Below, piece by piece: positions 1,600 through 40,770 of a stretch of DNA of 40,813 bases. Source of the stretch: a virus. The translations under genes were made by a program, and so were the position numbers. The notes beneath the pieces are model-generated. The model was not told where the DNA came from. It saw only the letters and a list, made by a program, of their open reading frames with translations, and searched no databases. Numbering within the stretch: the first letter of the stretch is position 1; each line of letters begins with the position of its first letter. Where the stretch lies: the IMG/VR virus record IMGVR_UViG_3300048833_000194, positions 1 to 40,813 of that record; one strand, given 5' to 3'.

Positions 1600-1862
1600 T
1601 GCGGCCCCTCCCGGAAAAAAACCCAAAGCGCGCCAAAGGCCGCCAGCACCGTCGCAGCCCATTTGATGATCCGGCCGCCCAGGCTCACCAAATTCCACGT
1701 CTGTGCTACCGTCACCAAAGTATCGGCCGCCTGTTGGATGCCGGCCATCTTCTTCAGATCGGAGCGGATTTCGCGGAAGCTTTCGTCGCCTTTGTCCAGG
1801 CGAGCGTTTATCTTCGCCAGCGCGTCCATTATGTCGGTATTGGTTGGATCGGCCACGGTCAT
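1596..1862 (-). CDS. Small C-terminally anchored membrane protein, holin or antiholin candidate
   Basis: An 88-residue protein with a polar, helix-forming N-terminal part (residues 1-60) and one membrane helix near the C-terminus (about 65-83). It lies between the esterase and the putative holin, coupled to both by 4-base overlaps. The form resembles the small lysis-cassette proteins of many proteobacterial phages, which act as holin partners or regulators of lysis timing. No catalytic motif is visible. Which of the two membrane proteins is the pore former cannot be told from sequence. Confidence 0.55.
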   Translation of the reverse strand: MTVADPTNTDIMDALAKINARLDKGDESFREIRSDLKKMAGIQQAADTLVTVAQTWNLVSLGGRIIKWAATVLAAFGALWVFFREGPQ

Positions 1863-2935
1863 GGCAGCAGCGCCTGCACCAGGGGGCCGATGATGGAGGC
1901 GCCAACGTCGTTCGGGTGTACGCCGTCGGGCAAGGTTCCGGTACCGATCGGCATCCCTCCTGCGTTACCTGCCAGGAACACAGTGTTGGCATCCGCCACC
2001 GCAGTGACTGCGGCTTGCATCGCGTTTCGGAATTGCTGCAGGGTTGGGCTGTTCCCCGCATAGGGGCCGCCCTGCCCAACGTCCGACGTCGAGTAGAGAT
2101 CTGACAGCATCACCAGCTTAGAGGCTGGCTTCCCCGCCAACACGGCGGCCGCCCTGTAGTTGGATATCAGCAACTCATAGGCCGCCTGCACCGCCGGCAG
2201 GCTGGCGCCGCCACCATAAAAATTGTTGAAGCCGCACAGATACACAGCCCCATCGGCGCCAAGGCCACCTGCAGCAGTTCCATCGGCCGGGATTATCTGC
2301 CGCCCGCCATAACCAAGGTTCAGCGCCTGCGCAGAGGCACCGGCTGCGGCAAGATCCAACCAGCTCGCCAGCGCACGGGAAACATTGAAGCCGTGCGTCC
2401 GGCTATCGCCAAAGCCGACGATGCGTTTCGAAGGTCTCGCCGGCGCCGCCCCCAGGGTAACGCCTGCCGGCAGCCCCAGCGCCTCCAGATCAAGGCTGGC
2501 ACAATAGGGCCAGATAACAGAAATGCTGTTGGAGCCGATGCCCACCGGCACCAGCACCGTTGCCGCGCTGATGGGGTGCGGCCCTGATTTCGGCACCGGG
2601 CAAGCAAAGTCTCGCGCCGCCGCGCCGTTCACCATCACCGTGCCAACATCGGCATAGGTGTCGGTTCGCGTCACCAGTCCGGTATATCGCACGCGCAAGG
2701 TCAACAGCGTGGGCGCCACGGCCGACACCACGATGCTTGCCCTGGCGCCGGGCGCGCAATGTTCATAGCCCTGCTCGTCGACGATTGGCCGTGTGGCGCG
2801 GGCACGCGAAGCGGTAACGCTCCAGCTTCCAGCCAGATCGGAATAGGTCCAGGCCGCGTCGTTCGGCAGCACGGTCGACACAACCGGCGGCGCCACCAGC
2901 GGCGATCGCGGATTGCGCGTTGCAAAGGCTACCAT
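1859..2935 (-). CDS. SGNH/GDSL hydrolase, virion-associated esterase
   Basis: A 358-residue protein with an N-terminal beta-rich region (about 1-165) and a C-terminal SGNH hydrolase domain. Block I is GFGDSRTHG with nucleophile Ser178, block II has Gly210-Gly211, block III is CGFNN with Asn237 or Asn238, and block V is DGVH with Asp337 and His340, so the full catalytic set is present. SGNH enzymes on phage tails typically remove acetyl or other ester groups from capsule or lipopolysaccharide. The gene overlaps the end of the tail-fibre gene by 7 bases, which supports an accessory role in adsorption. The natural substrate is unknown. Confidence 0.85.
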   Translation of the reverse strand: MVAFATRNPRSPLVAPPVVSTVLPNDAAWTYSDLAGSWSVTASRARATRPIVDEQGYEHCAPGARASIVVSAVAPTLLTLRVRYTGLVTRTDTYADVGTVMVNGAAARDFACPVPKSGPHPISAATVLVPVGIGSNSISVIWPYCASLDLEALGLPAGVTLGAAPARPSKRIVGFGDSRTHGFNVSRALASWLDLAAAGASAQALNLGYGGRQIIPADGTAAGGLGADGAVYLCGFNNFYGGGASLPAVQAAYELLISNYRAAAVLAGKPASKLVMLSDLYSTSDVGQGGPYAGNSPTLQQFRNAMQAAVTAVADANTVFLAGNAGGMPIGTGTLPDGVHPNDVGASIIGPLVQALLP

Positions 2936-4278
2936 TCCGGCACCTCTGCAAACGAAAGGCGGGTGGCGATTTGGGCGTCAACGCGCGCGGCCCGCACACT
3001 GGTCAGGCTGGCAGTTGCGCAGCGGAACACCGGGCCAACCCTGCTGGAGGGCGCGCACCGAACTTGCCATTGCAAATCCAGCGCTTCGAACGATTGCTGA
3101 TAGTGCAGCTGCGTTCGTCGATAATTCGCCGGGATTGCGGAGAGGTCGAACACGTTGGTCAGGCCGAAATCCACCGGCGCGCCCTGCTCCGTGCCAACCG
3201 GCGCCCCATAGTTGGGCGCCTCCAGAACGATGTTGTCGAACCAGAATTGCGCATGAAACTGGTAGATCGTCGGGCGCGGCGCCTGGAAACAATTGTTCAC
3301 CGCGTCGAACCACGGCTTGGAGGGCTCCAGATCGGCGTCCGTGTCGGGGCAGAATATCTTCTGCCAGGTCGTGCCGGCACTGTTCACCACGGCCGCCTGC
3401 GTCAGCTGGCCGGCAAACGGACGCGTCACACCCAGCAGTTTGTCCCATCCACCACCATTGAAGCGTAGCAGCGCGGTTTCACCCGCGTGCAGGATGCGGT
3501 TGGGCTGGCCGCCCATAAGATGCCCGCTGGCTGGAAAGCCCGCCAGCGTCAGCAACCCCGGCCAGCTAGCCGCCACCATCACCAGCACCGCGTCACCGAT
3601 GTTCACTGCCGATACGGCCGGCATGTTCAGCGTCAGGGCAGCGGCGGCACCCGCCACCACTACCACCCGATTGATGGCCATCGCGTCTAGCACGGCGCTG
3701 CTCGTCACCGTGATGATCTCGGCAGGGTCCAAGCTGATGCTGCTGTTCAACACCTGCGAAAGCTGGGCGCCCTCATGCAGGATCGCCAACGTGTCCATCG
3801 GCGTTCCTACAAGCGGGTTCACTGGCACCAGCTGCCCGCCGGAAAGGCCCAGCAGCTTGCCTTCCAGGTCGGCAAGCGGCGGCAGCAGCATAGCGCCCGC
3901 ACCAGCATCCGCATCGCGCACCACAACCGCTCTCGAAACGCCGTCGTCCAGCTCTTGTGCAATCAGCGTCAGCTTATCTAGCGCGGCCTCATGAGTTTGC
4001 GCCGGAAACGGATCATTGGGCACATAGTTGGTCCGCTGCGTCCGGGCCGTCACGCGCTTGATCCGGATGCGCTGGCCAACTGGAGGTGGCACCAGAAACA
4101 CCACTGCTGCGCCCAGTACCTGAAAGTCGATGTTCAGCAACGCCGGCAGATCAGCGCCACCCCAGTTTCGCACGACCACCAGATCTGCTGCTCCGGCGAA
4201 CGGAAACGGCACGGCAAAGCTCACCGTTACCCCATTGCCTTCATAGGCCACCCGACTTTGGGTTACCTCCACCGTCAT
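2929..4278 (-). CDS. Tail fibre with T7 gp17-like N-terminal domain
   Basis: A 449-residue protein. Residues 1 to about 130 look like the N-terminal particle-binding domain of T7-type tail fibres: a beta-rich region with YEGNGVTVSFAVPFPF, a middle IRIKRVT, and a helical end with HEAALDKLTLIAQELDD. The rest is beta-rich and lower in complexity, with a C-terminal receptor-binding part of unknown fold. The fibre would attach at the head-tail junction and bind the cell surface. It follows the ejection proteins, as gene 17 does in T7, and has a 4-base overlap with the gene before it. It is separate from the tailspike encoded at 21.5-24.4 kb. Confidence 0.85.
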   Translation of the reverse strand: MTVEVTQSRVAYEGNGVTVSFAVPFPFAGAADLVVVRNWGGADLPALLNIDFQVLGAAVVFLVPPPVGQRIRIKRVTARTQRTNYVPNDPFPAQTHEAALDKLTLIAQELDDGVSRAVVVRDADAGAGAMLLPPLADLEGKLLGLSGGQLVPVNPLVGTPMDTLAILHEGAQLSQVLNSSISLDPAEIITVTSSAVLDAMAINRVVVVAGAAAALTLNMPAVSAVNIGDAVLVMVAASWPGLLTLAGFPASGHLMGGQPNRILHAGETALLRFNGGGWDKLLGVTRPFAGQLTQAAVVNSAGTTWQKIFCPDTDADLEPSKPWFDAVNNCFQAPRPTIYQFHAQFWFDNIVLEAPNYGAPVGTEQGAPVDFGLTNVFDLSAIPANYRRTQLHYQQSFEALDLQWQVRCAPSSRVGPVFRCATASLTSVRAARVDAQIATRLSFAEVPEW

Positions 4279-6785
4279 TCGCTTTCCCCTTCGAACACAT
4301 TGCTGATATCCGGCGCGCGCTCAGGCGCCGGGTCGCCGGGCGCCCACCAGTAGGGCGCGTTCAACTCATCCTCGGCCCGCCGGATCATCCGGCGGTTTGC
4401 CGCGTCGAAGTCCGGGTCTGCCATGCGCTGCATCTCGCCCCAGATCAGCCGATCCATGGCAAGCCGCGCATACCAGATGCTGCTGCCCGGCGTGTTTGCG
4501 CGCAGGAAGCGCACGGTCTCGCGCCCCACGTTGCTGTCGTCGCCGTCGGCCGCCTGCTGGATGTTCCCCATGGTCAGCTTGCCGAAGCCTTCCAGCGTGC
4601 CGGCAAGCGGCCCTGCAAGCGTCGCCGCAAAGCCGCCGCCCATGCGGTTCTGGTCGGAAAATAGGAAGTCACCCATGATGCCAAGGCCGCCGCCCTGGAC
4701 GGCCGCCGCGCCCCAAAAGCGGGGGTCATCCATCGGCCGAGGGTCACGGCCTGCCAGCAGGGATTTTGTCTGGGCTGCCAGCGCACCGAACAACGTGGTG
4801 GCGATCATCACATGCGCCGCATATTGCGCGCGCGAAAGGGCGCCCCGCCCATGCACGGCGCGGGTCAGATGGGTGAACAGGATGGAGACAGGGAACGCCT
4901 TGAACTGCATCGCGCTCCGCACGAACTCGCCCATAACCGTGCCTGGCCGAACGCCGGCCGTGGTCACCGCCCGCGCGCGCAGCCCCGCATCGGGCACCGC
5001 ATAGCGCGTCTCGGTCTGGATCATTTCCAGCAGCAGGTCGGAAAGCCGTTCGCGGTCGGCGGCCGGAATGGCCGGGTTGGTCCGCACTTCGTCCGGCCTC
5101 AGAAGGCCGCCGCCGTTCTGCGCCTGGTGCAAGGGCGTCTGCCGGATGGCATCCCAGTCGGCCGCTCCGATGCCATGGCGCTCGAAGGCCTGCCGCAAGG
5201 GCGCGTCTATGTCAGCGAAGGCCTTTCCGGCGTTGTCGCCGACAGAGCCCATGAACTCCATGCCGAACAGCCATTTGCCCACCTGCGTCCAGCGCGAAAG
5301 ACCGGTCACCCGCAGCACGCCGGATGCCAGCCGCGAAGCCCAGGCCGGCGTGTTGAACTCATCGGCATAGCGATGCAGCGTTGCCATGCGGCTCGCCGCC
5401 TCCTCGGCCAGCAGACCGGATCGGATCGCCACCGCCCTCTCGCCCGCCTTAACGCGCGGCGCCATCCACTGCACATAGTCGCCCAGCGCCTTCGCCACCG
5501 GCAGGCCGTTGAAGGCGCGCGTGGTCATCTGAAAGCCAACGTCGGTCACGGCTGAAATGGCGGCCCCGCCCAGCTTGGCTGCGGTCTGCAGGCTGCGCGC
5601 TGCCGAAAAGCTGCGCGCCAGCTGGGCGTTCACCGGCCGCGTCAGCTCACCGTTGAACAGCCCCCACATGGTCTGCATCTGATATTTGGCGACGTTGGCC
5701 TTGCTTTCCACCGTCAGCACCCGGCCATTCGTGATGGCATCTGTCGCGGCGGCCTTGTCCAGCATGTTGGAAAGCCAGCGCACCGTCTGCTGCGGTTCAG
5801 GCCCAAGGATCTCCAGCGCGGCAATGTCGCGCGCCATCCCGTCCATGTGCCCCATCATCACGTCGAAGATGGCCCCCGGATCTCCGCGCGTGTCGCCGGC
5901 GCCGAACCGCGCCTGATAGTCCAGCCACTGGTCAGGATCTCGGAAGATCAGGAAGCGATGTTCGGCCCGCCTGTTCGCCAGGCTGCCGGCGCCGGCGGTC
6001 CCCAGCGTGCGGTCATCCCAGCCGCTGGTGATGATGCTGTCATAGGTCTCGCGCAGTTTGCGGTTCAGCTGCGCTCCCGTGAAGGGCCGGCCTGTCGCGT
6101 GGTTCACCATGCGCCCCACGTCCAGCATGGGCAGGATGCTTGCACGCCACTCGGCGAAGCCGGCCGCCTTCACCTTCACCGCGTCGTGCACCTGCGGCAG
6201 GCCCCAGTTCTGGATGCGGCCGATATCGCCGCCGGCCAGATTGAAACGTTTGCGCAGATACTCGGCCGCCTCGCCCCACGCCTTCGCCATCTGCTGTGCG
6301 GCGGCGTCACCGGTGGATTTTCCGAACGCCTCGCGCACCACATTTTCAAGCCGCGCGGGCTCCCGCATCCGGCCCAGCACGTCGCGGTCGAAGGTTTCCA
6401 GCAGATCGGCGATCATGCCGTGCGCCTTGCCCAGCACGGCCTTGCGGCGGCCTTCCACGTTGCTCATGCCGGTTGCGCGTTCGTCGAAGTCGAACAGCGC
6501 CGGGATCGCAACGTCCAGCTCCACGCCGTCGCCATCCAGCCTTTGCAGCTGCTGCACGATATCGCGGCGCGCATGGTAACGCAGGCCCGCCAGCCGCTGC
6601 CGGCGAAGGATGGCTGCCTGCGCTGCCGCCATCGTCTGCTGGGTGGCGGCGGCGGCGGCGGCGGCTGCCGACATGCTGCTGCGCAGGTTCGCACTCAGCT
6701 CGTCGAAGGTGTCGATATACAGCTGCGCCTGGGCGGCCGTGATGCTGCCCTGCGCGCGCAGGTTCAGGATGCAGGCATGGATCAT
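4275..6785 (-). CDS. Large internal virion (ejection) protein, 836 residues
   Basis: A large, mostly helical protein with an Ala run near residues 39-47 encoded by a GCC/GCG repeat, and several Ala/Gly-rich hydrophobic helices (for example about residues 395-430 and 640-700). No catalytic motif is recognised. Its place after the gp14-, gp15- and 1107-residue proteins and before the tail fibre matches the large core protein (gp16) of T7-like phages, which leaves the capsid first and helps form a DNA channel through the cell envelope. The C-terminal part also resembles domains that accompany large polyvalent phage proteins, but I cannot confirm this. Coupled to the upstream gene by ATGA. Confidence 0.7.
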   Translation of the reverse strand: MIHACILNLRAQGSITAAQAQLYIDTFDELSANLRSSMSAAAAAAAATQQTMAAAQAAILRRQRLAGLRYHARRDIVQQLQRLDGDGVELDVAIPALFDFDERATGMSNVEGRRKAVLGKAHGMIADLLETFDRDVLGRMREPARLENVVREAFGKSTGDAAAQQMAKAWGEAAEYLRKRFNLAGGDIGRIQNWGLPQVHDAVKVKAAGFAEWRASILPMLDVGRMVNHATGRPFTGAQLNRKLRETYDSIITSGWDDRTLGTAGAGSLANRRAEHRFLIFRDPDQWLDYQARFGAGDTRGDPGAIFDVMMGHMDGMARDIAALEILGPEPQQTVRWLSNMLDKAAATDAITNGRVLTVESKANVAKYQMQTMWGLFNGELTRPVNAQLARSFSAARSLQTAAKLGGAAISAVTDVGFQMTTRAFNGLPVAKALGDYVQWMAPRVKAGERAVAIRSGLLAEEAASRMATLHRYADEFNTPAWASRLASGVLRVTGLSRWTQVGKWLFGMEFMGSVGDNAGKAFADIDAPLRQAFERHGIGAADWDAIRQTPLHQAQNGGGLLRPDEVRTNPAIPAADRERLSDLLLEMIQTETRYAVPDAGLRARAVTTAGVRPGTVMGEFVRSAMQFKAFPVSILFTHLTRAVHGRGALSRAQYAAHVMIATTLFGALAAQTKSLLAGRDPRPMDDPRFWGAAAVQGGGLGIMGDFLFSDQNRMGGGFAATLAGPLAGTLEGFGKLTMGNIQQAADGDDSNVGRETVRFLRANTPGSSIWYARLAMDRLIWGEMQRMADPDFDAANRRMIRRAEDELNAPYWWAPGDPAPERAPDISNVFEGESE

Positions 6786-9700
6786 GCCGCGCCCCCCGGA
6801 TCTTTCAGGCAGCCTTCCACGGCCTTGAAGGCGGCCGCATCGGCATCGATGTCCGCCAGATCCGCGCGCGGGTCCGCCTCATCGCCATCGAACAGCGCGA
6901 ACAGGCCGCCAGTCTCGCCATCTGGCTCCCCGCCGGCCTCCAGCTCGCCACGCATATCGTGCAGCAGGTTGTCAGCCTGGGCAGCCGCCCCGGCTCCATA
7001 GGGGTCGTCGAACTCGTCAATGGTGCGGCCGCTGGCCGCGTCAGCCGTCAGTCGTCGGAGAAGATCTTCTCCAGCATCTCCTTCGCCGATGCGCTGGGGT
7101 TCTGCTCGAAGATCTGCTGCGTCCGGCTGTGCACCCGGTCGTCGATCTCCGACAGGTCGGTAAAGCCCTTCGTCCGAGGTTCTGACGAGCGACGGGGCAT
7201 TTCCTTCGGGGACGGCATTGCTGACATGCAGATATCCTTTCAGGTCACCACCGCGCTCGTCAAGCAAGCGCTGGAAATTGCGGGACGGCGCGTCCCCGAT
7301 CGAAGCAACATAGTCTGGATCGACAAGCCTGCCAGTGGCGGCATAGCGCGCCTTCGCGCGACGGACTGCCTCATCTCCGGGCAGATCCACGAAGTGGACA
7401 TAAACCGAGTAATTCTGCTTGACAAGTGCGTCAATGCGATTTTCGAGCTGGGCATAAGTGCGCCCCACCACGGGCAAAACGATGTTGTCCCCCGCCTCTA
7501 CGGAATGCCTTTCCGCCACCCGCGCCAGATCCGCGCTTTCTTCGTGCACGGCCACGGCGCCGATGCCGTCCCGATACTCAGGCAGTTTCGCCTTGGCATC
7601 GTCGCTGTCCACGATGCGCGCGCTGCGCGCCTTCGCAAGCGGCTCTGCCAGCGACGATTTACCGGCGGCCGGCGGCCCCAGCACGATATGCGCCTCACGG
7701 CCCTTTGCTGCAGGGCGCGCAAGCAGATCCTCCACGATGGCAAGCCGCAGATCGCCACGCGTGCGGCCGCTGCCGTCGCCGGCGGCATCTGCGTTTCTGA
7801 TGTTGTGTGTGCCGGGCGCCCCGCCCTCGGTGCGCGGAGGGTGCGCCTGAAGCAGCGCCTCCGCTTCCAGCCGTGCATCCTCGATGCTCTTGCCAGTACC
7901 GGGAAAAACCGGATTGTCGGGATCGCTCAGCCTGCCTGCGTCTGCGCCGACTGCACCCGCGCCGCTTTCCGCTGCATCACCAGTGCCTGCGCGTCCCGCC
8001 AGTCCTGCATCCCCTGCAGCATCTCGTGCAGGGCGTCCTCTTCCGACAAGCTCGTCAACAAGGTCGGGCTGCGATCGGAGGCCGGCGAGGAAGTCTCTGG
8101 CAGCGGCATCGGCTCGTTTCCCTTCGCTCATGGAAACAGCGGCACGCGAAAGCGCCGTGTTCACCGGGTTGTCCGTCACGCGCGCCAGCCGCTCTATCAC
8201 GTCCGCCAGCTGCGCGTTCTGCTCGGCCACGGCGGCGGCGCGGCCGCGATCGATGCGGGCGCCTGCTTCGGCCAGCGTGTCGGCATTGTCGGCTGCCGAA
8301 ACCAACGCACGCTTGGCGCGCCGCACACTCTCCAGCGCCCGTTCCAATATGCGGGCACGCTCGGCATAAAGGCTGCGCGTCACTTCCAGCACGCCAAACA
8401 TGTCGGTCTGATGCTCGCGGCTTCTTGGCGCGGCCAGCATGTCGCGCAGCATCAGTTCACGCTGTGCCGCGCTCGAAACATCGGCGGTGCGCAGGGCCTG
8501 GATCATCTGCGCGTGCAACTCGGGCGCGTCGGGCGCCACCCGGCCGACGATCGCGCCGATAATCATGGTTTCGTCGTCGCCGTTGATAACCATGCCGAAA
8601 GCATCGTCAGACAGGCGCGCCAACCCCATGGATTGCTGGCCGAAGGCGCTGGCCTTGTTGAAGCCCTTCAGGTGCGCACTGTCGATCCCGGCCCGCCGGA
8701 TGATCCGCGCCGCATCGGTCGGCGTTCCGGTGCCTGCCAGAATATTGGCCCCGGCGGCGCGAAGCATGGCGGTTTCCGCTGTCACGCCGTCTGCCTCGCG
8801 ATACACATGCGAAAGCAGGCCGATGTCCTCATAGCGGCCTTCGCCGATCAGCCGCCGCGCCAGCCCGCTGCGCTGGTGTCCGTCCGCTACGAACAGGGTT
8901 CCGTCGGCGCGCTCCCACACCATGATGGCGCCAGCCGCATCGGCATTCCATTCCGTCACGCCGCGCAGCCTGTCCGTCACGCCCTGCCCGTCGCCGCCGG
9001 CCTTGTATTGAAACGTCTCGGGGTCGGTCTGCAGATCCTTGGCGGAAAGGATCCGATAGTTACCGGGAAGCTGGGCGTCGATCGCGGCAGGGCTCAGCGG
9101 CGGCTCCATTCCGGCAGGCCCTGGCAACGGGTCGTCGGTCAGCAGCGCGTCTTCCGTCTCGTGCAGTCGCTGCAGGTGCGCCGCATCGGCATGGGGATCA
9201 GGCGCAAAGGGCGAAGTGTCCAGGTCATCCGCCTGCCGCTTCAGCACCTTCACTGCGGCCAGCTCGGTCGCCGTCAGCGGCATCCCGCGCGTATCCGGCA
9301 GGGCTTCCAGCTCGCGCGCCAGGCGGCGGGCACTCATCGCTTCCACACCCTTGTCCAGCGCCACCCCACCGGCGGCGGCGGTCGCGCCCAGCCCGCCGCC
9401 CACCAGCGCCGCCAGCCCCAGGTCCAGCGCCGCATCGCCAAGGCCATATTCGCGGCCCAGCTCTTCCATGTTCCTGTCTTTGAACGCCAGCGCCGGCACG
9501 GTCGCAGCCGTGTTCAACGCCGCCTCGCGCAGGGCGCTGATGCCGATCTGCCGCGCGATCCCGCCGCTTACCGGCCCGCCAAACGGCAATGTCAGCCCCG
9601 TGGTAATCCACGTCACCGGGTCGGCCAGGGTGGATTGGATGGCGCCGCCCAGCTCGCCCACCACGGTTGCGGCCCCGCTGCCGGATGCCAGCACGCTCTC

Positions 9701-10105
9701 CGCGTCCACCAGGTCGCGCTTCCGGCGCGCCAGCACCGCGTTGTCGAAGGCATCCCGGTCGGGATAATCCTGCAAGAAGCCCGGATCGCGCTCGCGTTCG
9801 GCGGCAACCTCCTGCCAGATCCGGTCGGCAATGGCTTCACGGTCGCGGGCAAAGTTGCGCGGCGTGATGGCAATGCGCCGGCCATAGCCGGTGTCGATCG
9901 ACGTGCGACCACGCGAACGCAGCGCGTCCACCACCGGCTGGGCCAGTTGCTTGGCGTAAAGGTCGTAACTGTCCGAACGGTCCAGCACGTCGGATTGTTG
10001 GCGGGCTGCCCCCCATATGTCGCCAAAGCTCGGCGGCATCGAACCGCCGCGCGGCAGGATGGCGCTCAGATCTGGCTGGGCGAAGCTGTCCAGAAGGCCG
10101 CTCAT
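6782..10105 (-). CDS. 1107-residue ejection protein with ParB-like and zeta-toxin-like domains
   Basis: Residues 1-260 are helical with Gly/Ala-rich hydrophobic stretches, like an internal virion protein. Residues about 345-475 resemble a ParB/Srx-type domain, with VADGHQRSGLARRL at 406-419. Residues about 555-640 are coiled-coil-like. Residues about 800-975 form a P-loop domain with Walker A GPPAAGKSS (810-818), then IVDSDDAKAKLPEY, which fits zeta-toxin-type kinases. The C-terminus is acidic. Zeta toxins phosphorylate UDP-activated sugars; activity here is not shown. The gene lies between the gp15-like and 836-residue ejection genes, with 4-base overlaps, so the product probably travels in the virion. 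Multi-domain delivered proteins of this type are known as polyvalent proteins. ParB and zeta calls are by motif only. Confidence 0.8.
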   Translation of the reverse strand: MSGLLDSFAQPDLSAILPRGGSMPPSFGDIWGAARQQSDVLDRSDSYDLYAKQLAQPVVDALRSRGRTSIDTGYGRRIAITPRNFARDREAIADRIWQEVAAERERDPGFLQDYPDRDAFDNAVLARRKRDLVDAESVLASGSGAATVVGELGGAIQSTLADPVTWITTGLTLPFGGPVSGGIARQIGISALREAALNTAATVPALAFKDRNMEELGREYGLGDAALDLGLAALVGGGLGATAAAGGVALDKGVEAMSARRLARELEALPDTRGMPLTATELAAVKVLKRQADDLDTSPFAPDPHADAAHLQRLHETEDALLTDDPLPGPAGMEPPLSPAAIDAQLPGNYRILSAKDLQTDPETFQYKAGGDGQGVTDRLRGVTEWNADAAGAIMVWERADGTLFVADGHQRSGLARRLIGEGRYEDIGLLSHVYREADGVTAETAMLRAAGANILAGTGTPTDAARIIRRAGIDSAHLKGFNKASAFGQQSMGLARLSDDAFGMVINGDDETMIIGAIVGRVAPDAPELHAQMIQALRTADVSSAAQRELMLRDMLAAPRSREHQTDMFGVLEVTRSLYAERARILERALESVRRAKRALVSAADNADTLAEAGARIDRGRAAAVAEQNAQLADVIERLARVTDNPVNTALSRAAVSMSEGKRADAAARDFLAGLRSQPDLVDELVGRGRPARDAAGDAGLAGRAGTGDAAESGAGAVGADAGRLSDPDNPVFPGTGKSIEDARLEAEALLQAHPPRTEGGAPGTHNIRNADAAGDGSGRTRGDLRLAIVEDLLARPAAKGREAHIVLGPPAAGKSSLAEPLAKARSARIVDSDDAKAKLPEYRDGIGAVAVHEESADLARVAERHSVEAGDNIVLPVVGRTYAQLENRIDALVKQNYSVYVHFVDLPGDEAVRRAKARYAATGRLVDPDYVASIGDAPSRNFQRLLDERGGDLKGYLHVSNAVPEGNAPSLVRTSDEGLYRPVGDRRPGAQPDAADLRAEPQRIGEGDAGEDLLRRLTADAASGRTIDEFDDPYGAGAAAQADNLLHDMRGELEAGGEPDGETGGLFALFDGDEADPRADLADIDADAAAFKAVEGCLKDPGGAA

Positions 10106-12144
10106 TGGGCGCCCCCGATGCGGAGGGCAAACAGCTTGCCGTCTGGCCGGCGCAGCGGCGTCGATGCGCCGGGCAGCACAACATAATATCTGCCGTCACC
10201 AGCGGAGTAGAGCGCACCCCCCCTTATTGTTTCAGCGGAAACATCGCGGCCGCGATCGTCCACTGGCCGAAGCCCGGCGGCTGCTTTCAGCCGCTCGTCT
10301 GTCAGCCGCGCCATAGAGCCGTCGAAATCCTCCTGGGAAACGCCGGCTCCCAGCACAACCGGCACGCCACGCCATTCCCCCAGGCCGCCGCGCTCCACGC
10401 CATCCGCGCCGCGCACGGCGCCAAGCGCCATCCTCACGCCGGCATCAAAGGCCGGCGCGCGCCAGTCGGCGCCGCCGCTACGGCCCCAGCGCGCCGCATA
10501 GATCTGGGTGGCGGCCGCCTTCGCCGGCCCGGAAGCCCCAGGCATGAAGCGGAAGGCCGGGCCGATCAGCGCTGTGAAGCGCTCATCCACCTTGTCTTTC
10601 GGCGCCAGCTTCGGCTGGGCCTTCAGATAGTCGGCGCCCTGGAACAGATCCTGCGTCGCTGCCAGCCGGCCTTGCCCGGCAAGCCCGATCGCCCAGCCCG
10701 CTACCGGGTCTTTCGCGGCAACCTGCCGCGCTGCATCCTTGGTATAGGGGCCGAACTGCGAAAGCTGCGAAACCGCCACCATTTTCTGCTGGGGCGTGCC
10801 GGTCGTCAGCTGCAGCGTGAAGGCGTCCGCTTCTGTGGATGTCAGCGGCGATGGCTTCACGCCGTAGCGCCGCGCTGCGGAAGTCGCGATGGCGCCACGT
10901 CGGCGGAAGCTGTCAGGGTCGTTTCCGTCCAGTGTGGGGATCTGCTGGCCATATTGCGCTTCCCACCCAAGCAGATCCTCGCTGGCGGCTTTGCGCTGGG
11001 CCTGCCGAAGGTCGCGCAGCTGGTCGCGCGCCGCGATGGCCGTGGGGTCAGCATTTGCGCCATCCTTGGCGATCTGCGCGGAAAGCGCCTGTTCGTTGAA
11101 TTGCAGCTCAACCGGGCTCATCCGGCCAAACTGCTGGTTTACGGCCGCCTTCGTCCCCAGCACCGCTATGGCAACGGATTGCCCGGGATTGCCCAGCGAA
11201 CCCGCCATGCGCGCGGCCTGCCGCACAGTGTCCATGGGCACAGGAACCCCGGCGCTCAGGGCAGCACTGATGCCACCCACATAGTCGCGTGCGGCTTCCC
11301 TGCGGTCCCGTTCGGCTTCGCGCGCAGCGGCGGCCGCCGCCCTTGCTTCTGCCCGCCGTGCGGCCTCCTCGGCGCGCGCCTGCGCCTCGCGCCCCCGGAT
11401 CTCGCTGTCCACCCGGTTCGTGATACCGGTCATGTTGTCGGCGTCGATCAGGCTATTCAGCTTGCCCGAGCGCAGGATTTCCCGCGCCTTATATGGGTCA
11501 CGCTCGGCCAGCCCCTCTATGAAGCTGCGCGAAAGCCGGTTGGTGGCCAGCTTCTCCAGCTTCGATTTTTGCTCGGCATTCAGCTGCGGGATTGCCGCCA
11601 GATTTTCGCGGAACAGCGCCACGGATTGCGCCAGGCCGCGTTCGCTGCCGGCGATGGCCAGGTCGTTCGCGGCCGTCGAAACCGCCGTGTCGAAGTCGCT
11701 TGCGGCCTTGTGCGCCTGCACGCCCACCACATAGGCGCCCTCGTCCAGGTCCAGATCGGCGCGCAGCTCCGCCACCCGCGCCTGATACTCCGCCTGCAGC
11801 TTGGGGCTGGTCACCCCACCCATGAAGGCGGCGGCCCGTTCGTCGAAGCGCTTCAACAGGCCTTCGCGATGCTCGGCGCCGTCGGGCGCCATGTTGCGCC
11901 GCGCTTCCTGCCGGTCTGCGGCGGTCGCTGTGCGCAGCCCCACAAAGTCGTTCAGCTTCGCCAGACGCTGTGCATTCTCGCTTTCGCGCTGTTCCTTCTC
12001 CTCGCGCGCCGCAATCGCTTGCCCCATGCGTTGCAGGCCATGCCCCACCTGGCCGCCGAAGTGGCTGGCATCCACGCGCGGCAGATCCAGCCGCGTGCCC
12101 ACCTCGGCCGCCACCTGGGAACGATATGTCGGAATGCGCGCCAT
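10102..12144 (-). CDS. Internal virion protein, T7 gp15-like
   Basis: A 680-residue, mainly helical protein. The N-terminus (RIPTYRSQVAAEVGTRLDLP) and long charged helices rich in Ala, Arg and Glu (for example about residues 235-290) resemble the gp15-type internal core proteins of short-tailed phages, which are ejected after adsorption and extend the tail across the periplasm. No enzymatic motif is seen. The start overlaps the stop of the gp14-like gene by one base (TGATG), and the end overlaps the 1107-residue gene by four, consistent with one ejection-protein operon. Confidence 0.78.
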   Translation of the reverse strand: MARIPTYRSQVAAEVGTRLDLPRVDASHFGGQVGHGLQRMGQAIAAREEKEQRESENAQRLAKLNDFVGLRTATAADRQEARRNMAPDGAEHREGLLKRFDERAAAFMGGVTSPKLQAEYQARVAELRADLDLDEGAYVVGVQAHKAASDFDTAVSTAANDLAIAGSERGLAQSVALFRENLAAIPQLNAEQKSKLEKLATNRLSRSFIEGLAERDPYKAREILRSGKLNSLIDADNMTGITNRVDSEIRGREAQARAEEAARRAEARAAAAAAREAERDRREAARDYVGGISAALSAGVPVPMDTVRQAARMAGSLGNPGQSVAIAVLGTKAAVNQQFGRMSPVELQFNEQALSAQIAKDGANADPTAIAARDQLRDLRQAQRKAASEDLLGWEAQYGQQIPTLDGNDPDSFRRRGAIATSAARRYGVKPSPLTSTEADAFTLQLTTGTPQQKMVAVSQLSQFGPYTKDAARQVAAKDPVAGWAIGLAGQGRLAATQDLFQGADYLKAQPKLAPKDKVDERFTALIGPAFRFMPGASGPAKAAATQIYAARWGRSGGADWRAPAFDAGVRMALGAVRGADGVERGGLGEWRGVPVVLGAGVSQEDFDGSMARLTDERLKAAAGLRPVDDRGRDVSAETIRGGALYSAGDGRYYVVLPGASTPLRRPDGKLFALRIGGAQ

Positions 12145-12569
12145 CAGCCGCCGGCACCCACAGCAGCGGCACCCGCATCCATGATGCCGCCCAGCAGCTC
12201 GAAGGCACCCTGACGTTTCGCCAGTCGGGCCTGATAGTTCAGCGCTGCGGATTTGTTATGCGCGTCCGCCTTCACGCGCAGCCGATCCAGCCCGCTTTCC
12301 ACTTCGATTTCGCGCAGGGCGTCCAGGGCGCTGCCGCTGCCCATGCCGCCACCGTTCGCGCCCATGCCGGCAATGGCCTCTCCGGCCGTCCGGCGGGCCT
12401 CCATGCGGATGTCGTCATCCTGCGCCACGCCGGTGCGGATGGCCGCGCGCGCTTCTGCCCGCATCAGCTTCGCGTTGGCCTTGCCGGCCATGAAGCCGGA
12501 CACGCCCTTTACCAGCGGGCCGCCCATTTGCAGCGCCTTGGCGGCCGTTTGCGATCCGCCGTTGCTCAT
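12144..12569 (-). CDS. Internal virion protein, T7 gp14-like
   Basis: A 141-residue Ala/Gly-rich helical protein. The central stretch ALREIEVESGLDRLRVKADA followed by a Tyr-Gln-Ala-Arg-Leu segment and a hydrophobic Gly/Ala C-terminus is characteristic of the small ejection protein of T7-like particles, where gp14 inserts in the outer membrane. It sits directly before the gp15-like gene, in the T7 order, and overlaps its upstream neighbour by four bases. Confidence 0.75.
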   Translation of the reverse strand: MSNGGSQTAAKALQMGGPLVKGVSGFMAGKANAKLMRAEARAAIRTGVAQDDDIRMEARRTAGEAIAGMGANGGGMGSGSALDALREIEVESGLDRLRVKADAHNKSAALNYQARLAKRQGAFELLGGIMDAGAAAVGAGG

Positions 12570-13054
12570 GCGGCAGCCCTTGCGCAGTCGGCCGCCCGCA
12601 CGAAGGTCAGGAACCCGTCGGCCAGCACGTCCAGGCTGGCAGGCACCAGATGCAGCCCCAGCAGGGCCGCCCAGCGTCGGGCCGGCAGCCAGTCGGCGCG
12701 GATCAACGCCTCCACGCGGCCATATGGCGCGCTGGCAATCTTCTGGCGCACCAGCCGCGTCACCGCCGCGTGGTCGCGGCCAAGGCCCTGCGCCACCAGC
12801 GCCCAGGCGATCGCATAGCTGCCGCGCTGGGAACTCGCGGCCGAAGGTGAAGCTGCCATCTCATGGAAACCGCCGGCGCCCAGCACCCACCCCTTGGAGT
12901 CCCGCGCAGTCCAGCACGGCCCCGCCTCCACCAGTTGGCGGCCATAGTCCTCGTCGAGGACCGGGCTGGCAGAACCAAGCCACTGCTGCTGCACCGGCTC
13001 CAGGAACAGCCAGTCCAGATCGGATGGCACGAAGGGCGAAAGGAAGATGCTCAT
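12566..13054 (-). CDS. GNAT-like virion-assembly protein (T7 gp13 position)
   Basis: A 162-residue protein that looks like a degenerate GNAT acetyltransferase fold: an N-terminal strand-helix segment, a central strand with GWVLGAGGFHEM, then AQGLGRDHAAVTRLV, which recalls the acetyl-CoA loop and following helix. In podoviruses a GNAT-like protein often follows tail tube B, at the place of T7 gene 13. Whether it acetylates anything is unknown, and the binding loop is only partly conserved. Coupled by ATGA to tail tube B. Confidence 0.6.
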   Translation of the reverse strand: MSIFLSPFVPSDLDWLFLEPVQQQWLGSASPVLDEDYGRQLVEAGPCWTARDSKGWVLGAGGFHEMAASPSAASSQRGSYAIAWALVAQGLGRDHAAVTRLVRQKIASAPYGRVEALIRADWLPARRWAALLGLHLVPASLDVLADGFLTFVRAADCARAAA

Positions 13055-35761: not shown

Positions 35762-36015
35762 AGGCCGGGCTCCTGCGACGCGCAGAGGCAGCGCAGCGGC
35801 TGGCGGTCAGCGATCGCACGCTGGCGCGCCTCATCGCACGCGGGGAACTGGCCGTGCACCGCATCGGCAACCAGGTGCGGCTGGAACCGGATGAACTGGA
35901 ACGCTTCATCCGCAACGCGCGCGAACTCGCGCCCGAACCCCGTGCGCGCCGGCTGCAGCGCCAGCGCGCCTCGATGCCGGAAGGCGTCCCCGATTTTGAA
36001 AAGATCCGCGCATGA
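35758..36015 (+). CDS. xis: Excisionase-type HTH protein
   Basis: An 85-residue protein with a MerR-like winged helix: RRAEAAQRLAVSDRTLARLI, then ARGELAVHRIGNQVRLEPDE and a final helix. This is the HTH_17 excisionase-family pattern. It sits directly before the integrase gene, overlapping it as ATGA, so it likely bends attachment-site DNA and steers the integrase to excision. It has a GTG start at 35758. The basic tail after residue 58 may add DNA contacts. Confidence 0.8.
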   Translation: MKAGLLRRAEAAQRLAVSDRTLARLIARGELAVHRIGNQVRLEPDELERFIRNARELAPEPRARRLQRQRASMPEGVPDFEKIRA

Positions 36016-37199
36016 GCCTCTACCGCCGCAAGGTCACCAGCATCGATCCGGCAACGGGCAAGCGCAGCGTGCAGGCGGGCCGCGTCTGGTGGTTTGATTT
36101 CACCGTGAACGGCAAGCGCATCAGGGGCAGCAGCGGCACGGACATAAAGGCGGAAGCCCGGCAGGTGGAAGCCAAGGCCCTGCAGGATGCAAAGGCCGCC
36201 TCTGCCATGCCCAACCGCTGGCGCCTGCGCCACATGTTCGGCGCCTATTGGGAAGGCCGCGCCCGCCACGCCAAGAATGCAGATGATCTGAAGGCGCAGA
36301 TGGCCGCCATCTCCGATGGGCTGGGGCCTAACCTCTATGTGATGGATCTCACCGCCGAAATGCTGGTGGCCTATCTCACCCGCCGCCGCACCGGCATTCG
36401 CCTGGTGTGGGAAAAGGTTCCGGCCGCCCGGCGCAATGGCACCAGGGCAGAGCGCCGCCAGGTCGAACGCCCATATCTCCGGTCGAACGCCACGCTGAAC
36501 CGCGAGCTGGCCGCCCTGCGCGCCGCCATGAACTTCGCCGCCGATGCCCATGGCCAGCCGGTGCCCCGCATCAACTGGAAGAAGATCGTTCTGAAGGAAG
36601 CTGCGCCCCGCGTGCGCCACCTCCGGCAAGACGAGTTTCAACGGCTTCTGGAATGCGCGGCGGACGATGAAATGGCGCTGATGATCGTGCTGGCGATCGG
36701 CAGCGCGCTGCGCCGCCAGAACCTGCGGGATCTGGATTGGGCGCAGGTCGATCTCATCACTGGCCGCATTGCCGACATCACCACCAAGGGCGGCAAGAAC
36801 TTTCAGGTGCGGCTCAGCGGCGACCCGCTCACCCGCCTGCAGCGCCACGCCGCCGCCGTGCAGAAGGAAACGGGCAAGCTCGAAGGCAGGGTTTTCACCC
36901 GGCCCAACTGGCGCCGCCGCTGGGATGCCACCCGCAATGCCGCCGGCATCGCCAACTATCGCTGGCACGATCACCGCCACACCTTCGGCGCCTGGATGCG
37001 CCTGGCCGGCGTGGACATCGCCGATATCCGCGACGCGATGAACCACAGCAGCATCGCGATGACCACGCGCTACATGCACATAACCCCGGAAGAGGCGACC
37101 ACCGCCTGGGACGTGATGGGCAAGCGCCTCACCCCCGAAGCACCCCAAAAAGCAAAAGGCGCGGCCGCACCAAAGCCCGCCACCCGTGAAGGAGAATAG
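36012..37199 (+). CDS. int: Tyrosine-recombinase integrase
   Basis: A 395-residue protein. Residues 1-55 are an arm-binding-type domain, about 60-180 the core-binding domain and about 200-365 the catalytic domain. The active-site set is visible: Arg234 (SALRRQN), Lys259 (TTKGG), His319 and Arg322 (WHDHRHTFG), His345 (MNHSS) and Tyr354 (TRYMH). It would recombine attP with the tRNA-Thr gene. It lies about 3.5 kb inside attR, with many genes between, while many phages have int next to attP. Confidence 0.95.
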   Translation: MSLYRRKVTSIDPATGKRSVQAGRVWWFDFTVNGKRIRGSSGTDIKAEARQVEAKALQDAKAASAMPNRWRLRHMFGAYWEGRARHAKNADDLKAQMAAISDGLGPNLYVMDLTAEMLVAYLTRRRTGIRLVWEKVPAARRNGTRAERRQVERPYLRSNATLNRELAALRAAMNFAADAHGQPVPRINWKKIVLKEAAPRVRHLRQDEFQRLLECAADDEMALMIVLAIGSALRRQNLRDLDWAQVDLITGRIADITTKGGKNFQVRLSGDPLTRLQRHAAAVQKETGKLEGRVFTRPNWRRRWDATRNAAGIANYRWHDHRHTFGAWMRLAGVDIADIRDAMNHSSIAMTTRYMHITPEEATTAWDVMGKRLTPEAPQKAKGAAAPKPATREGE

Positions 37200-37891: not shown

Positions 37892-38714
37892 TCTCCATCA
37901 GGGCGTAACCCCGGCCGCGCACGCCGTGCTGGATCAGCTGGAGGCGCTCCGCGCTCAGCCGGATCCAGCCGGCACCTATTTCCACCCCCACGCAGCCAAG
38001 GCCCTGCTGCCGCGCCTGCTGCGCACCACGATGATGGCCACCGCCACGCGCATGGCGGTGGAAGCCGCCGCCCATCTTATCCGCTTCGTCGAACAGCAGG
38101 ATGCCAGCCACCAGCGCCTGGGCATCCACCTGTTCGGCAATCCAGATGCTCCAGGGTTGGAGCAGGTCGCCGAAGGTGCAGGGTCGGAAGCGGGGGGCAC
38201 TCCTCCTCCTTCTCCCCCCGCGCCTTCACCTTCGGCGGCCATCATCGAAACCTGCGATCGCCTCGCCCAGCGCATGGGCGGGCAATATGTCCCCCACGAA
38301 AGCGAGCGCGCAGACCGCAACGCCGCCGCTGCCGCACTGGAGGCAAACGAGCGCCAGCGGTTGGAAGCCGAGGTGGAGAGGCTGAGGGCTGAGAGAGACC
38401 GCCCGGAAACGACAGACTGGCTTCGGGGTGTCATGCTTGAAGCCTCTCACCAGCGGGCAAGGTGGGGTTCCGATCGCGATGCTGGGAAGACACCGCTCGA
38501 TTGGTTCTGGCTGATCGGCTTCCTCGCCCAGAAGGCCGCGCAGGCCGCAGTATCGGGCGACACTGAGAAAGCTGCGCATCACACGATCAGCACAGCCGCC
38601 GCTTTGGCGAACTGGCACTTGGCCATCACCGGCCAGTCCAATGCAATGCGTCCGGGTATCAACCCGCCGGAAGCCCTGTCCGCCGAAGCCATCAATCAGG
38701 AGCCCGCCAAATGA
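37884..38714 (+). CDS. 276-residue protein with C-terminal helical domain
   Basis: Residues 1-85 are helical, 90-120 a Pro/Ser-rich linker, 125-175 coiled-coil-like, and 180-265 a separate helical domain with EASHQRARWGSDRDAGKTPL, then DWFWLIGFLAQKAAQA and an Ala-rich helix. That last domain is common in phage proteins and looks somewhat like an all-alpha MazG-type nucleotide hydrolase, but the metal-binding Glu/Asp set is not clear. The ATG at 37884 is chosen since GGGAGG lies 6 bases upstream; 37878 is too close. Confidence 0.6.
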   Translation: MDDLHQGVTPAAHAVLDQLEALRAQPDPAGTYFHPHAAKALLPRLLRTTMMATATRMAVEAAAHLIRFVEQQDASHQRLGIHLFGNPDAPGLEQVAEGAGSEAGGTPPPSPPAPSPSAAIIETCDRLAQRMGGQYVPHESERADRNAAAAALEANERQRLEAEVERLRAERDRPETTDWLRGVMLEASHQRARWGSDRDAGKTPLDWFWLIGFLAQKAAQAAVSGDTEKAAHHTISTAAALANWHLAITGQSNAMRPGINPPEALSAEAINQEPAK

Positions 38715-39535
38715 GCCCCCCCCTCAAGCCAAAGGCCCGGTCGTTGAACCCCGCGCGCGGCACGCCGCCCACGCTCGAATGGGTCGCGCTCGATCGGCTG
38801 GAGGTAGACGAAGCCTACCAGCGCAGCGTGGAAGATCCGCGCAGCCAGAAGCTGATCGCCGCGATCGCGCGCGATTTCGACTGGAGCCTGTGCCTGCCGC
38901 TCTCCTGCGTGCGCCGGGAAGGCGGCCAGATCATGGTCGTTGATGGCCAGCACCGTCTTACCGGCGCCAGGATGCGCAGCGATATCGCCCACCTGCCGTG
39001 CGTCATCACCTCGGCGCCCACGGTGCAGGATGAAGCGGCCCTGTTCGCCAAGCTCAACCGCCACCGCCGCCCGCTCTCCGGCTTCGAGATCTGGCGCGCC
39101 GCCCTCGCCGGCGGCGATGCAGACGCGACGGCCGCCAACGCCATCATAGAGGCCGCCGGCCTGAAGCTCGCCGCACATACCAACTACAGCAGTTGGAAGC
39201 CCGGCCAGGTCGGCTGCATTGCCGGCGTCGTCCGAGCCATGAAGAATTACGGCCCGAAGCCGACGGAGCGCGCCCTGATCGCGATCGCCGAAGCCTACGA
39301 GGGCGAAGTGCTGAACTATGCCGCCACGCTGCTGCAGTCGCTCGTTCCCATCTATGGCTCGCCACCGGCGAACTTCGATCCCGATGCCATGATCGCGGGC
39401 CTGCAGGAAAAGATGCAGGAAGAGTGGAAGACAGCCGCCGTCGAGGACGCCCGCCGCCAGCTCCGGCCTCCGCGCGATGTGATGACGGACCATTTCCTCC
39501 ACGCCCACAACCGCCACGCAGGAAAAGCCGCTTGA
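38711..39535 (+). CDS. ParB/Srx-like DUF6551-type protein
   Basis: A 274-residue protein. Residues about 20-110 form a ParB N-terminal-type domain: LEWVALDRLEVDEAYQR, then MVVDGQHRLTGARM (VDGQHR at 77-82) and LFAKLNRHRRPLSGFE. The C-terminal half is helical. Such domains in phages are thought to bind or cut DNA or hydrolyse CTP, but the role of DUF6551 proteins is not known. It is coupled by ATGA to the previous gene. Confidence 0.75.
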   Translation: MSPPLKPKARSLNPARGTPPTLEWVALDRLEVDEAYQRSVEDPRSQKLIAAIARDFDWSLCLPLSCVRREGGQIMVVDGQHRLTGARMRSDIAHLPCVITSAPTVQDEAALFAKLNRHRRPLSGFEIWRAALAGGDADATAANAIIEAAGLKLAAHTNYSSWKPGQVGCIAGVVRAMKNYGPKPTERALIAIAEAYEGEVLNYAATLLQSLVPIYGSPPANFDPDAMIAGLQEKMQEEWKTAAVEDARRQLRPPRDVMTDHFLHAHNRHAGKAA

Positions 39536-40630: not shown

Positions 40631-40686
40631 ATGCCAAGACTGAAAGACGATTGCAAAAATAAAGCCTTTAGTTTACAAGGCTATAA

Positions 40687-40770
<84 letters not shown>

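Follow-up and report, generated by a model that had tools for sequence, protein, structure and literature searches.

A ParB-zeta protein of a prophage as the putative upstream half of a split podophage ejection protein with a swappable effector and a terminal-cysteine joint

The present work concerns a single gene in a 40,813-nucleotide stretch of viral DNA (IMG/VR record IMGVR_UViG_3300048833_000194, positions 1 to 40,813), which was analysed as a whole and is referred to below as the window; it corresponds to an integrated prophage. The gene, on the minus strand at 6782..10105, encodes a protein of 1107 amino acids, called here the ParB-zeta protein. Comparison with its relatives suggests, with a probability of roughly 0.6, that this protein is the upstream half of a split ejection protein of the T7 gp16 type, that it carries a swappable effector, and that it is joined to the downstream half through terminal cysteines. 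The comparisons show that a fixed trunk and a fixed tail flank a slot in which unrelated predicted enzyme modules replace each other, and that a pair of cysteines, one at the end of the upstream protein and one near the start of its partner, goes with the split state of what appear to be gp16-type proteins. A wider proposition is more tentative, at slightly worse than even odds: that in many podophages gp16 consists of two proteins stapled by a C-terminal and an N-terminal cysteine, and that in one branch the half with a ParB clamp provides a socket for toxin enzymes which are injected with the DNA.

Results

Architecture of the ParB-zeta protein

The protein and its parts, all on the minus strand, are as follows.

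6782..10105: ParB-zeta ejection protein, 1107 amino acids (open frame; position kept between the gp15-slot gene and phrog_684 in about 100 relatives)
9074..10105: N-terminal helical trunk, residues 1-344 (about 80% identity to the nearest relative, L006, over residues 1-687; hydropathy; helical in a low-confidence model)
8732..9073: ParB/Srx N-domain, residues 345-458, with DGHQR at 408-412 (AlphaFold pLDDT 94; ParB and Noc are the best matches)
8420..8731: helix-turn-helix of the ParB unit, residues 459-562 (model residues 104-227 match the DNA-binding domains of Spo0J-parS and Noc)
8036..8419: trunk segment with a beta-hairpin and a long helix, residues 563-690 (AlphaFold model; conserved in the family)
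7205..7705: zeta-toxin-type kinase module, residues 801-967 (Pfam, PDB profile, fold, alignment of 24 homologous modules)
6782..7054: conserved C-terminal tail, residues about 1018-1107 (reappears past the module swap with 67% identity to L006)

The first-pass annotation of this DNA had described an open reading frame of 1107 residues, and the frame is indeed single and open over 1107 codons; the motifs on which it had relied, VADGHQRSGLARRL at residues 406-419 and GPPAAGKSS at 810-818, lie where it had placed them, and its DNA intervals are correct. It had also proposed a ParB-type and a zeta-type P-loop domain, and had named the absence of any structural match to these folds as evidence that would speak against it; both folds were found.

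The ParB-type Pfam models, including that of the polyvalent DdrB-like ParB, gave no match at E<=1 in the window protein or nine relatives, the PHROG ParB-like family reached the window protein with E=0.025 at best, and the ParB family profile gave no match to PDB sequences. Because no relative gave a Pfam hit, the domain was identified by structure. For residues 336-690, an AlphaFold model that drew on 67 relatives reached a mean pLDDT (predicted local distance difference test score) of 94.1, and its match list is headed by ParB chains (Z 9.0-9.9), among them Myxococcus xanthus ParB (Z 9.9) and Caulobacter ParB (Z 9.1, with a root-mean-square deviation of 2.7 over 95 residues). Noc, matched over 194 residues with a deviation of 5.0, and KorB are listed too, and sulfiredoxin comes next (Z 6-7). 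The matches to ParB/Noc CTPases in the PDB span both the CTP-binding domain and the helix-turn-helix, and since the structural match extends through the latter, what is present is a ParB unit rather than only a ParB-like motif: the motif of the first-pass annotation is real, but it is part of a complete ParB N-domain followed by a helix-turn-helix. The residues D-G-H-Q-R, which conform to the ParB/Srx [D]GxxR nucleotide/phosphate-binding motif, are invariant across 67 diverse relatives. The unit is accordingly described here as a predicted CTPase-like domain with a helix-turn-helix.

The kinase module contains a Walker A motif (GPPAAGKSS, 810-818), a DxD motif (833-835) and an RYAATGR region. 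Pfam PF06414 (Zeta_toxin) matches residues 805-946 with E=3.2e-12 and 46.8 bits, against a cut-off of 22.3, and a profile of 19 relatives finds zeta toxin (1gvn, E=2.9e-10) and PezT (2p5t, E=1.1e-5) in the PDB; a PDB search with the zeta-part sequence alone gave weak kinases only. The first eight Foldseek matches of the full-length AlphaFold model (mean pLDDT 62, with about 80-90 in the zeta part) are zeta/PezT chains, and the Walker A and DxD motifs align with those of solved zeta toxins. Of 24 zeta modules, taken from diverse contigs, most retain these two motifs and the arginine motifs, and the zeta modules contain no cysteine in 2816 residues. No cognate antitoxin gene lies between the ParB-zeta gene and its overlapping neighbours. 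With ParB and zeta, several disparate conflict domains are combined in one late product of the virion operon, which agrees with the earlier suggestion of a polyvalent protein.

Elsewhere in the trunk, hydropathy marks weakly hydrophobic, Gly/Ala-rich segments at residues 225-249. One relative carries a peptidase M15 domain ahead of ParB (L129:7988-9982, E=1e-14), so the N-terminal part of ParB proteins is variable too. Contigs labelled Gastranaerophilales and Elusimicrobia encode ParB proteins of 2100-2700 amino acids, two of which have the zeta-like P-loop GAPASGKSS (L118 at about residue 980, L138 at about residue 1005), followed in L118 by IIDSDMAKERIPEF; as judged from these motifs, the pairing of ParB with zeta may reach phages outside Proteobacteria.

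Exchange of modules in a single slot

The counts below come from relatives sampled as the 80 best of 450 viral hits together with 39 genome hits, and they are no unbiased census. Among 81 non-redundant proteins, the slot between trunk and tail holds no enzyme in 31, a RelA/SpoT-like module in 25, a zeta module in 18 and a PBECR1 nuclease in 2; a GNAT domain and a phrog_938-like piece occur once each, and an ART-like module, a tentative assignment, occurs in 3, in one case alongside a RelA-like module. Pfam E-values of the swapped modules are 4.8e-9 for RelA_SpoT, 2e-9 for PBECR1 and 6e-5 for GNAT. Several long slot contents that had been taken for modules of unknown type were rejected as low-complexity linker.

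Two comparisons locate the exchange. In L006 the ParB region is 89% identical to that of the window, and a RelA/SpoT-like module stands in place of the kinase: the two proteins are 80% identical over residues 1-687 and 67% identical in the tail, and their middles are unrelated. The clearest case is seen at the DNA level between L072, which has a RelA-like module, and L091, which has a zeta module: an unrelated segment of about 1 kb is flanked by sequence of 88% identity, for 11.1 kb on the upstream side and 1.9 kb on the downstream side. Modules are thus swapped as whole cassettes while the gene around them is conserved. A quick tree of the ParB region, with 81 tips, requires at least 25 changes of module type, and at least 11 changes between zeta and non-zeta. 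The ortholog of Dunaliella viridis virus SI2 is without an enzyme. The joining of ParB to zeta reported by the first-pass annotation thus holds for the window protein, but zeta is one of several interchangeable modules and no fixed partner of ParB. A constant carrier with exchanged toxin modules is the arrangement by which polymorphic toxins are recognised, and the pattern speaks for an injection device that can be loaded with different enzymes and against a one-off fusion.

The name RelA/SpoT-like requires some care. The first RelA-like profile spread into the ParB helical segment, and only matches past ParB, obtained with a second profile, were counted. Pfam RelA_SpoT is matched directly only by the L062 subgroup, a seed profile of which reaches 12 proteins, and L006-type modules are tied to RelA_SpoT only via chained BLAST; by these sequence links the name is firm for the L062 subgroup and of moderate strength for the rest. 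The RelA-like modules are clearly unrelated to zeta, since hhalign gives a probability of 0.8% for the two.

The terminal cysteine pair

The features needed here, all on the minus strand, are the two cysteine codons and the genes on either side of the ParB-zeta gene.

6809..6811: codon of Cys1099, the sole cysteine of the ParB-zeta protein
6771..6773: codon of Cys5, the sole cysteine of the phrog_684 protein
4275..6785: phrog_684 virion protein, 836 amino acids, proposed partner of the ParB-zeta protein (PHROG E=3e-183)
10102..12144: gp15-slot ejection protein, 680 amino acids, without cysteine (synteny)
12144..12569: gp14-like internal virion protein, without cysteine (phrog_418 E=1e-21; Pfam T7_gp14 E=0.002)

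Cysteine makes up 0.13% of residues in the ParB proteins that were analysed. The single cysteine in the 1107 residues of the ParB-zeta protein gives it a composition that suits a periplasm-crossing protein; the neighbouring ejection proteins, like T7 gp15 and gp16, are cysteine-free. A cysteine nevertheless stands among the last 12 residues of all 81 non-redundant ParB proteins (the sole one in 66), and near the N-terminus of all 71 phrog_684 proteins (again the sole one in 66). Cysteine is absent from 73 of 76 gp15-slot proteins and from 64 of 75 gp14-like proteins. Tail tube proteins and other structural junctions are without such a pattern. Some start codons of automatic open reading frames are wrong, which affects only the counts of extra N-terminal cysteines; some of these extra cysteines were rejected as probable products of wrong N-terminal extensions (in L006, those at residues 65 and 70, which precede the homologous start).

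Distant podophages have the pair as well, the upstream protein bearing one cysteine no more than about 8 residues from its C-terminus and the phrog_684 homologue bearing one close to its N-terminus: it is present in phiV10, VC8, YeP5, BcepC6B, Acinetobacter MD-2021a, Shamal, Piluca, Tyrion, epsilon15, Ab31 and three Pelagibacter phages. A tblastn search found no ParB in these phages, and the pair probably predates the ParB domain. Vibrio phage ZCVPP1 retains the pair although 2.9 kb separates its two genes. A role of the cysteines as part of a DNA signal was rejected, both cysteine codons being used and the spacing ranging from 14 to 1850 nucleotides.

Single-chain proteins behave differently. 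The gp16 proteins of T7, SP6, phiKMV and P-SSP7 have no cysteine, nor does the 2563-residue protein of P-SCSP1g. A natural fusion, L112:8747-17185, joins a ParB protein, an ADP-ribosyltransferase (polyvalent type PF18760, E=9e-13) and a phrog_684 unit in 2812 residues; it occupies the same operon slot, contains no cysteine, and its phrog_684 unit is without the first 54 or so positions. A scan of viral contigs found no relatives of this fusion, and fused cases beyond the T7-type ones are few. Separately, six loci (L001, L012, L013, L015, L086 and L123) encode giant ParB-bearing proteins of 3900-4400 amino acids without cysteine, in some of which there are recognisable helicase-like and methylase-like stretches.

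The most economical reading is that the terminal cysteines would join the split halves, and that everything else has been purged of cysteine because the chain passes through an oxidising compartment.

Gene order and prophage setting

An 86-nucleotide near-repeat at 41-126 and 40651-40736 marks the prophage ends; it terminates in the beginning of a tRNA-Thr gene. The integrase lies as follows.

36012-37199: integrase

The minus strand of the window encodes, in order, portal, capsid, tail tube A and B, the gp14-like protein, the 680-residue gp15-slot protein, the ParB-zeta protein, phrog_684 and a T7-type fibre. The phrog_418 gene is thus two genes upstream of the ParB-zeta gene and phrog_684 directly downstream, with the tail tube and fibre genes nearby, and the ParB-zeta gene overlaps phrog_684 via ATGA and the gp15-slot gene via four bases. 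It occupies a place in a gp14-gp15-gp16 operon, by which podophage ejection proteins are recognised. The order from tail tube A through tail tube B, gp14, gp15-slot, ParB protein and phrog_684 to the fibre is found in nearly all intact members of a set of about 100 syntenic relatives, consisting of viral contigs and mostly alphaproteobacterial genomes (contigs covering the region), which bears out the ejection-cassette location proposed earlier. Lysogens of Stappia, Aurantimonas, Aureimonas and Sphingopyxis are among these relatives.

Several other genes of the window may be recorded. A small protein at 12566-13054 (minus), between tail tube B and the gp14-like gene, is present in some relatives only, and its slot is annotated as an acetyltransferase in Pelagibacter phage records. 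A GDSL-type esterase gene follows the fibre gene at 1859-2935 (minus; Pfam E=2e-10) and probably encodes a receptor-modifying tail enzyme. A second, stand-alone ParB-like protein is encoded near the integrase end at 38711-39535 (plus; DUF6551 E=1.5e-20, PHROG ParB-like E=1e-19). An open frame of 1075 codons antisense to the ParB-zeta gene, at 6959-10186 (plus), is judged to be a by-product of high G+C.

Discussion

Comparison with known systems

That multidomain proteins containing ParB, RelA/SpoT, PBECR, ART and zeta domains are injected was proposed in 2017 (Iyer et al., PMC5512222). The ParB-zeta protein resembles the polyvalent proteins with DdrB-like ParB of that study in combining a ParB fold with conflict-type enzymes, in being a late phage gene product and in its predicted injection; it differs in that its ParB matches no Pfam ParB model and includes a helix-turn-helix, and in having one trunk, one variable slot and a conserved tail. 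The same study places zeta kinases in conjugative elements and MuF fusions, with ejection or internal virion proteins unmentioned.

The likeness to T7 gp16 and the podophage ejectosome (PMC8954989) lies in the slot after gp14 and gp15, the cysteine-free neighbours, the size, and the helical, weakly hydrophobic parts. In contrast to T7 gp16, there are here two genes with complementary terminal cysteines, and the window protein carries ParB and a kinase, with no lysozyme domain found; no sequence match to T7 gp16 was obtained, and the profile of 19 relatives matched no PDB ejection protein. MuF polymorphic toxins such as Apk2, which are a tested example of phage-borne RelA-type toxins (PMC12226406), likewise combine a phage-associated carrier with variable toxin enzymes that include RelA/SpoT-type synthetases, but here a predicted ejection protein serves as carrier, the variable module lies inside the chain ahead of a conserved tail, and zeta-type loci have no adjacent immunity gene. 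The module shares the kinase fold and motifs of zeta/PezT toxins; it differs from them in lacking an epsilon/PezA antitoxin, in being embedded in a virion-type protein, and, relative to zeta, in the motif past the central strand, which is PVVG/PKVG here and of the acidic EGT type there. Phage 80alpha gp44, as described in the abstract (PMC7290940), is a DNA-binding ejection protein, DNA binding being predicted in the present case; its gene position differs, that abstract describes no enzyme module, and the comparison is one of descriptions alone.

Proposed mechanism

In the T7-type ejectosome the first proteins to exit the head are gp14, gp15 and gp16, the last of which crosses the inner membrane and exposes a DNA-binding part to the cytoplasm (PMC8954989). 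By analogy, the ejection proteins of the window phage would be packed in the head and be the first to leave it. The two halves would then be linked via their terminal cysteines, most simply by a disulfide formed after leaving the reducing cytoplasm, to give a long gp16-like chain, the ParB part of which would hold or clamp the entering DNA at the inner membrane. The kinase would arrive in the cytoplasm and act at once, most likely by phosphorylating UDP-amino-sugar precursors, which would slow the growth of the wall or the metabolism of the host during establishment of the phage. That modules are swapped suggests arms-race selection on the effector.

Alternative explanations

Several findings weigh against this reading of the protein. 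An enzyme is missing altogether from 31 of the 81 relatives; no immunity gene, such as accompanies classical polymorphic toxins, was found beside zeta-type loci when gaps of more than 150 bp were examined, only L030 having an uncharacterised gap there (small open reading frames do occur in the gap after the ParB gene at some non-zeta loci); and the fused giants of Gastranaerophilales contigs have 3-5 internal cysteines. A homotypic disulfide, a metal site or some other use of the cysteines is also possible. The terminal cysteines could be unlinked to each other, each forming, with its counterparts in a ring of like subunits, a homotypic disulfide or a shared metal site, which would suit the oligomeric state of gp16-type proteins, in which like residues meet, and the presence of one cysteine per chain at a ring contact; yet the two cysteines co-occur, and both are lost in single-chain versions, including the L112 fusion, which is without the N-terminal part of the phrog_684 unit, and this arrangement is regarded as somewhat unlikely.

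The remaining alternatives concern what the modules do. They could be protective rather than toxic, with the ParB unit coating or clamping the incoming DNA and the modules countering host immunity, for instance by consuming or making nucleotide signals. The constant part is, after all, a predicted ParB-type DNA clamp, the ejection protein gp44 of 80alpha is described as protecting DNA ends (PMC7290940), nucleotides or nucleotide sugars are the substrates of RelA-like and zeta-like enzymes, and frequent swaps are consistent with an arms race. The module types nevertheless match known toxin classes (zeta, RelA_SpoT, PBECR, ART, GNAT) and no link of the modules to a given defence system is seen, which leaves an anti-defence role unlikely. 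Less probable again is that the zeta module works late, in the producing cell, where it would phosphorylate wall precursors to aid lysis and would not be an injected effector: the gene is a late gene and zeta toxins do block wall synthesis and cause lysis (PMC5512222), but the module sits inside a trunk whose place, the slot of an ejection protein, is unchanged in about 100 relatives, the RelA-like, PBECR1, GNAT and ART-like alternatives have no common lysis role, and the freedom of the zeta modules from cysteine is as expected of a chain that passes the periplasm. That the modules are inert passengers or structural spacers, as might be supposed from the many relatives without a module and the slots filled only by low-complexity linker, is very improbable given the retention of the Walker A, DxD and arginine motifs described above.

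Significance

The general idea of injected multidomain conflict proteins (PMC5512222) and phage-borne MuF toxins of the RelA type (PMC12226406) are already known. Searches of the open-licence literature brought up no ejection protein described as containing zeta or ParB, no account of the terminal cysteine pair, and neither an ejection-protein trunk with a single swappable slot nor the exchange of its contents as a cassette; the proposed cysteine-joined split is the newest part of the finding. If the proposal is true, short-tailed phages would own an injected-effector platform comparable to the MuF toxins, and natural near-isogenic pairs, with one backbone and either a zeta or a RelA-like module, would make the role of an injected enzyme directly testable. 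The cysteine pair would then supply a simple, checkable rule for the joining of ejection proteins across a large phage group, as well as a signature for spotting split ejection proteins in sequence.

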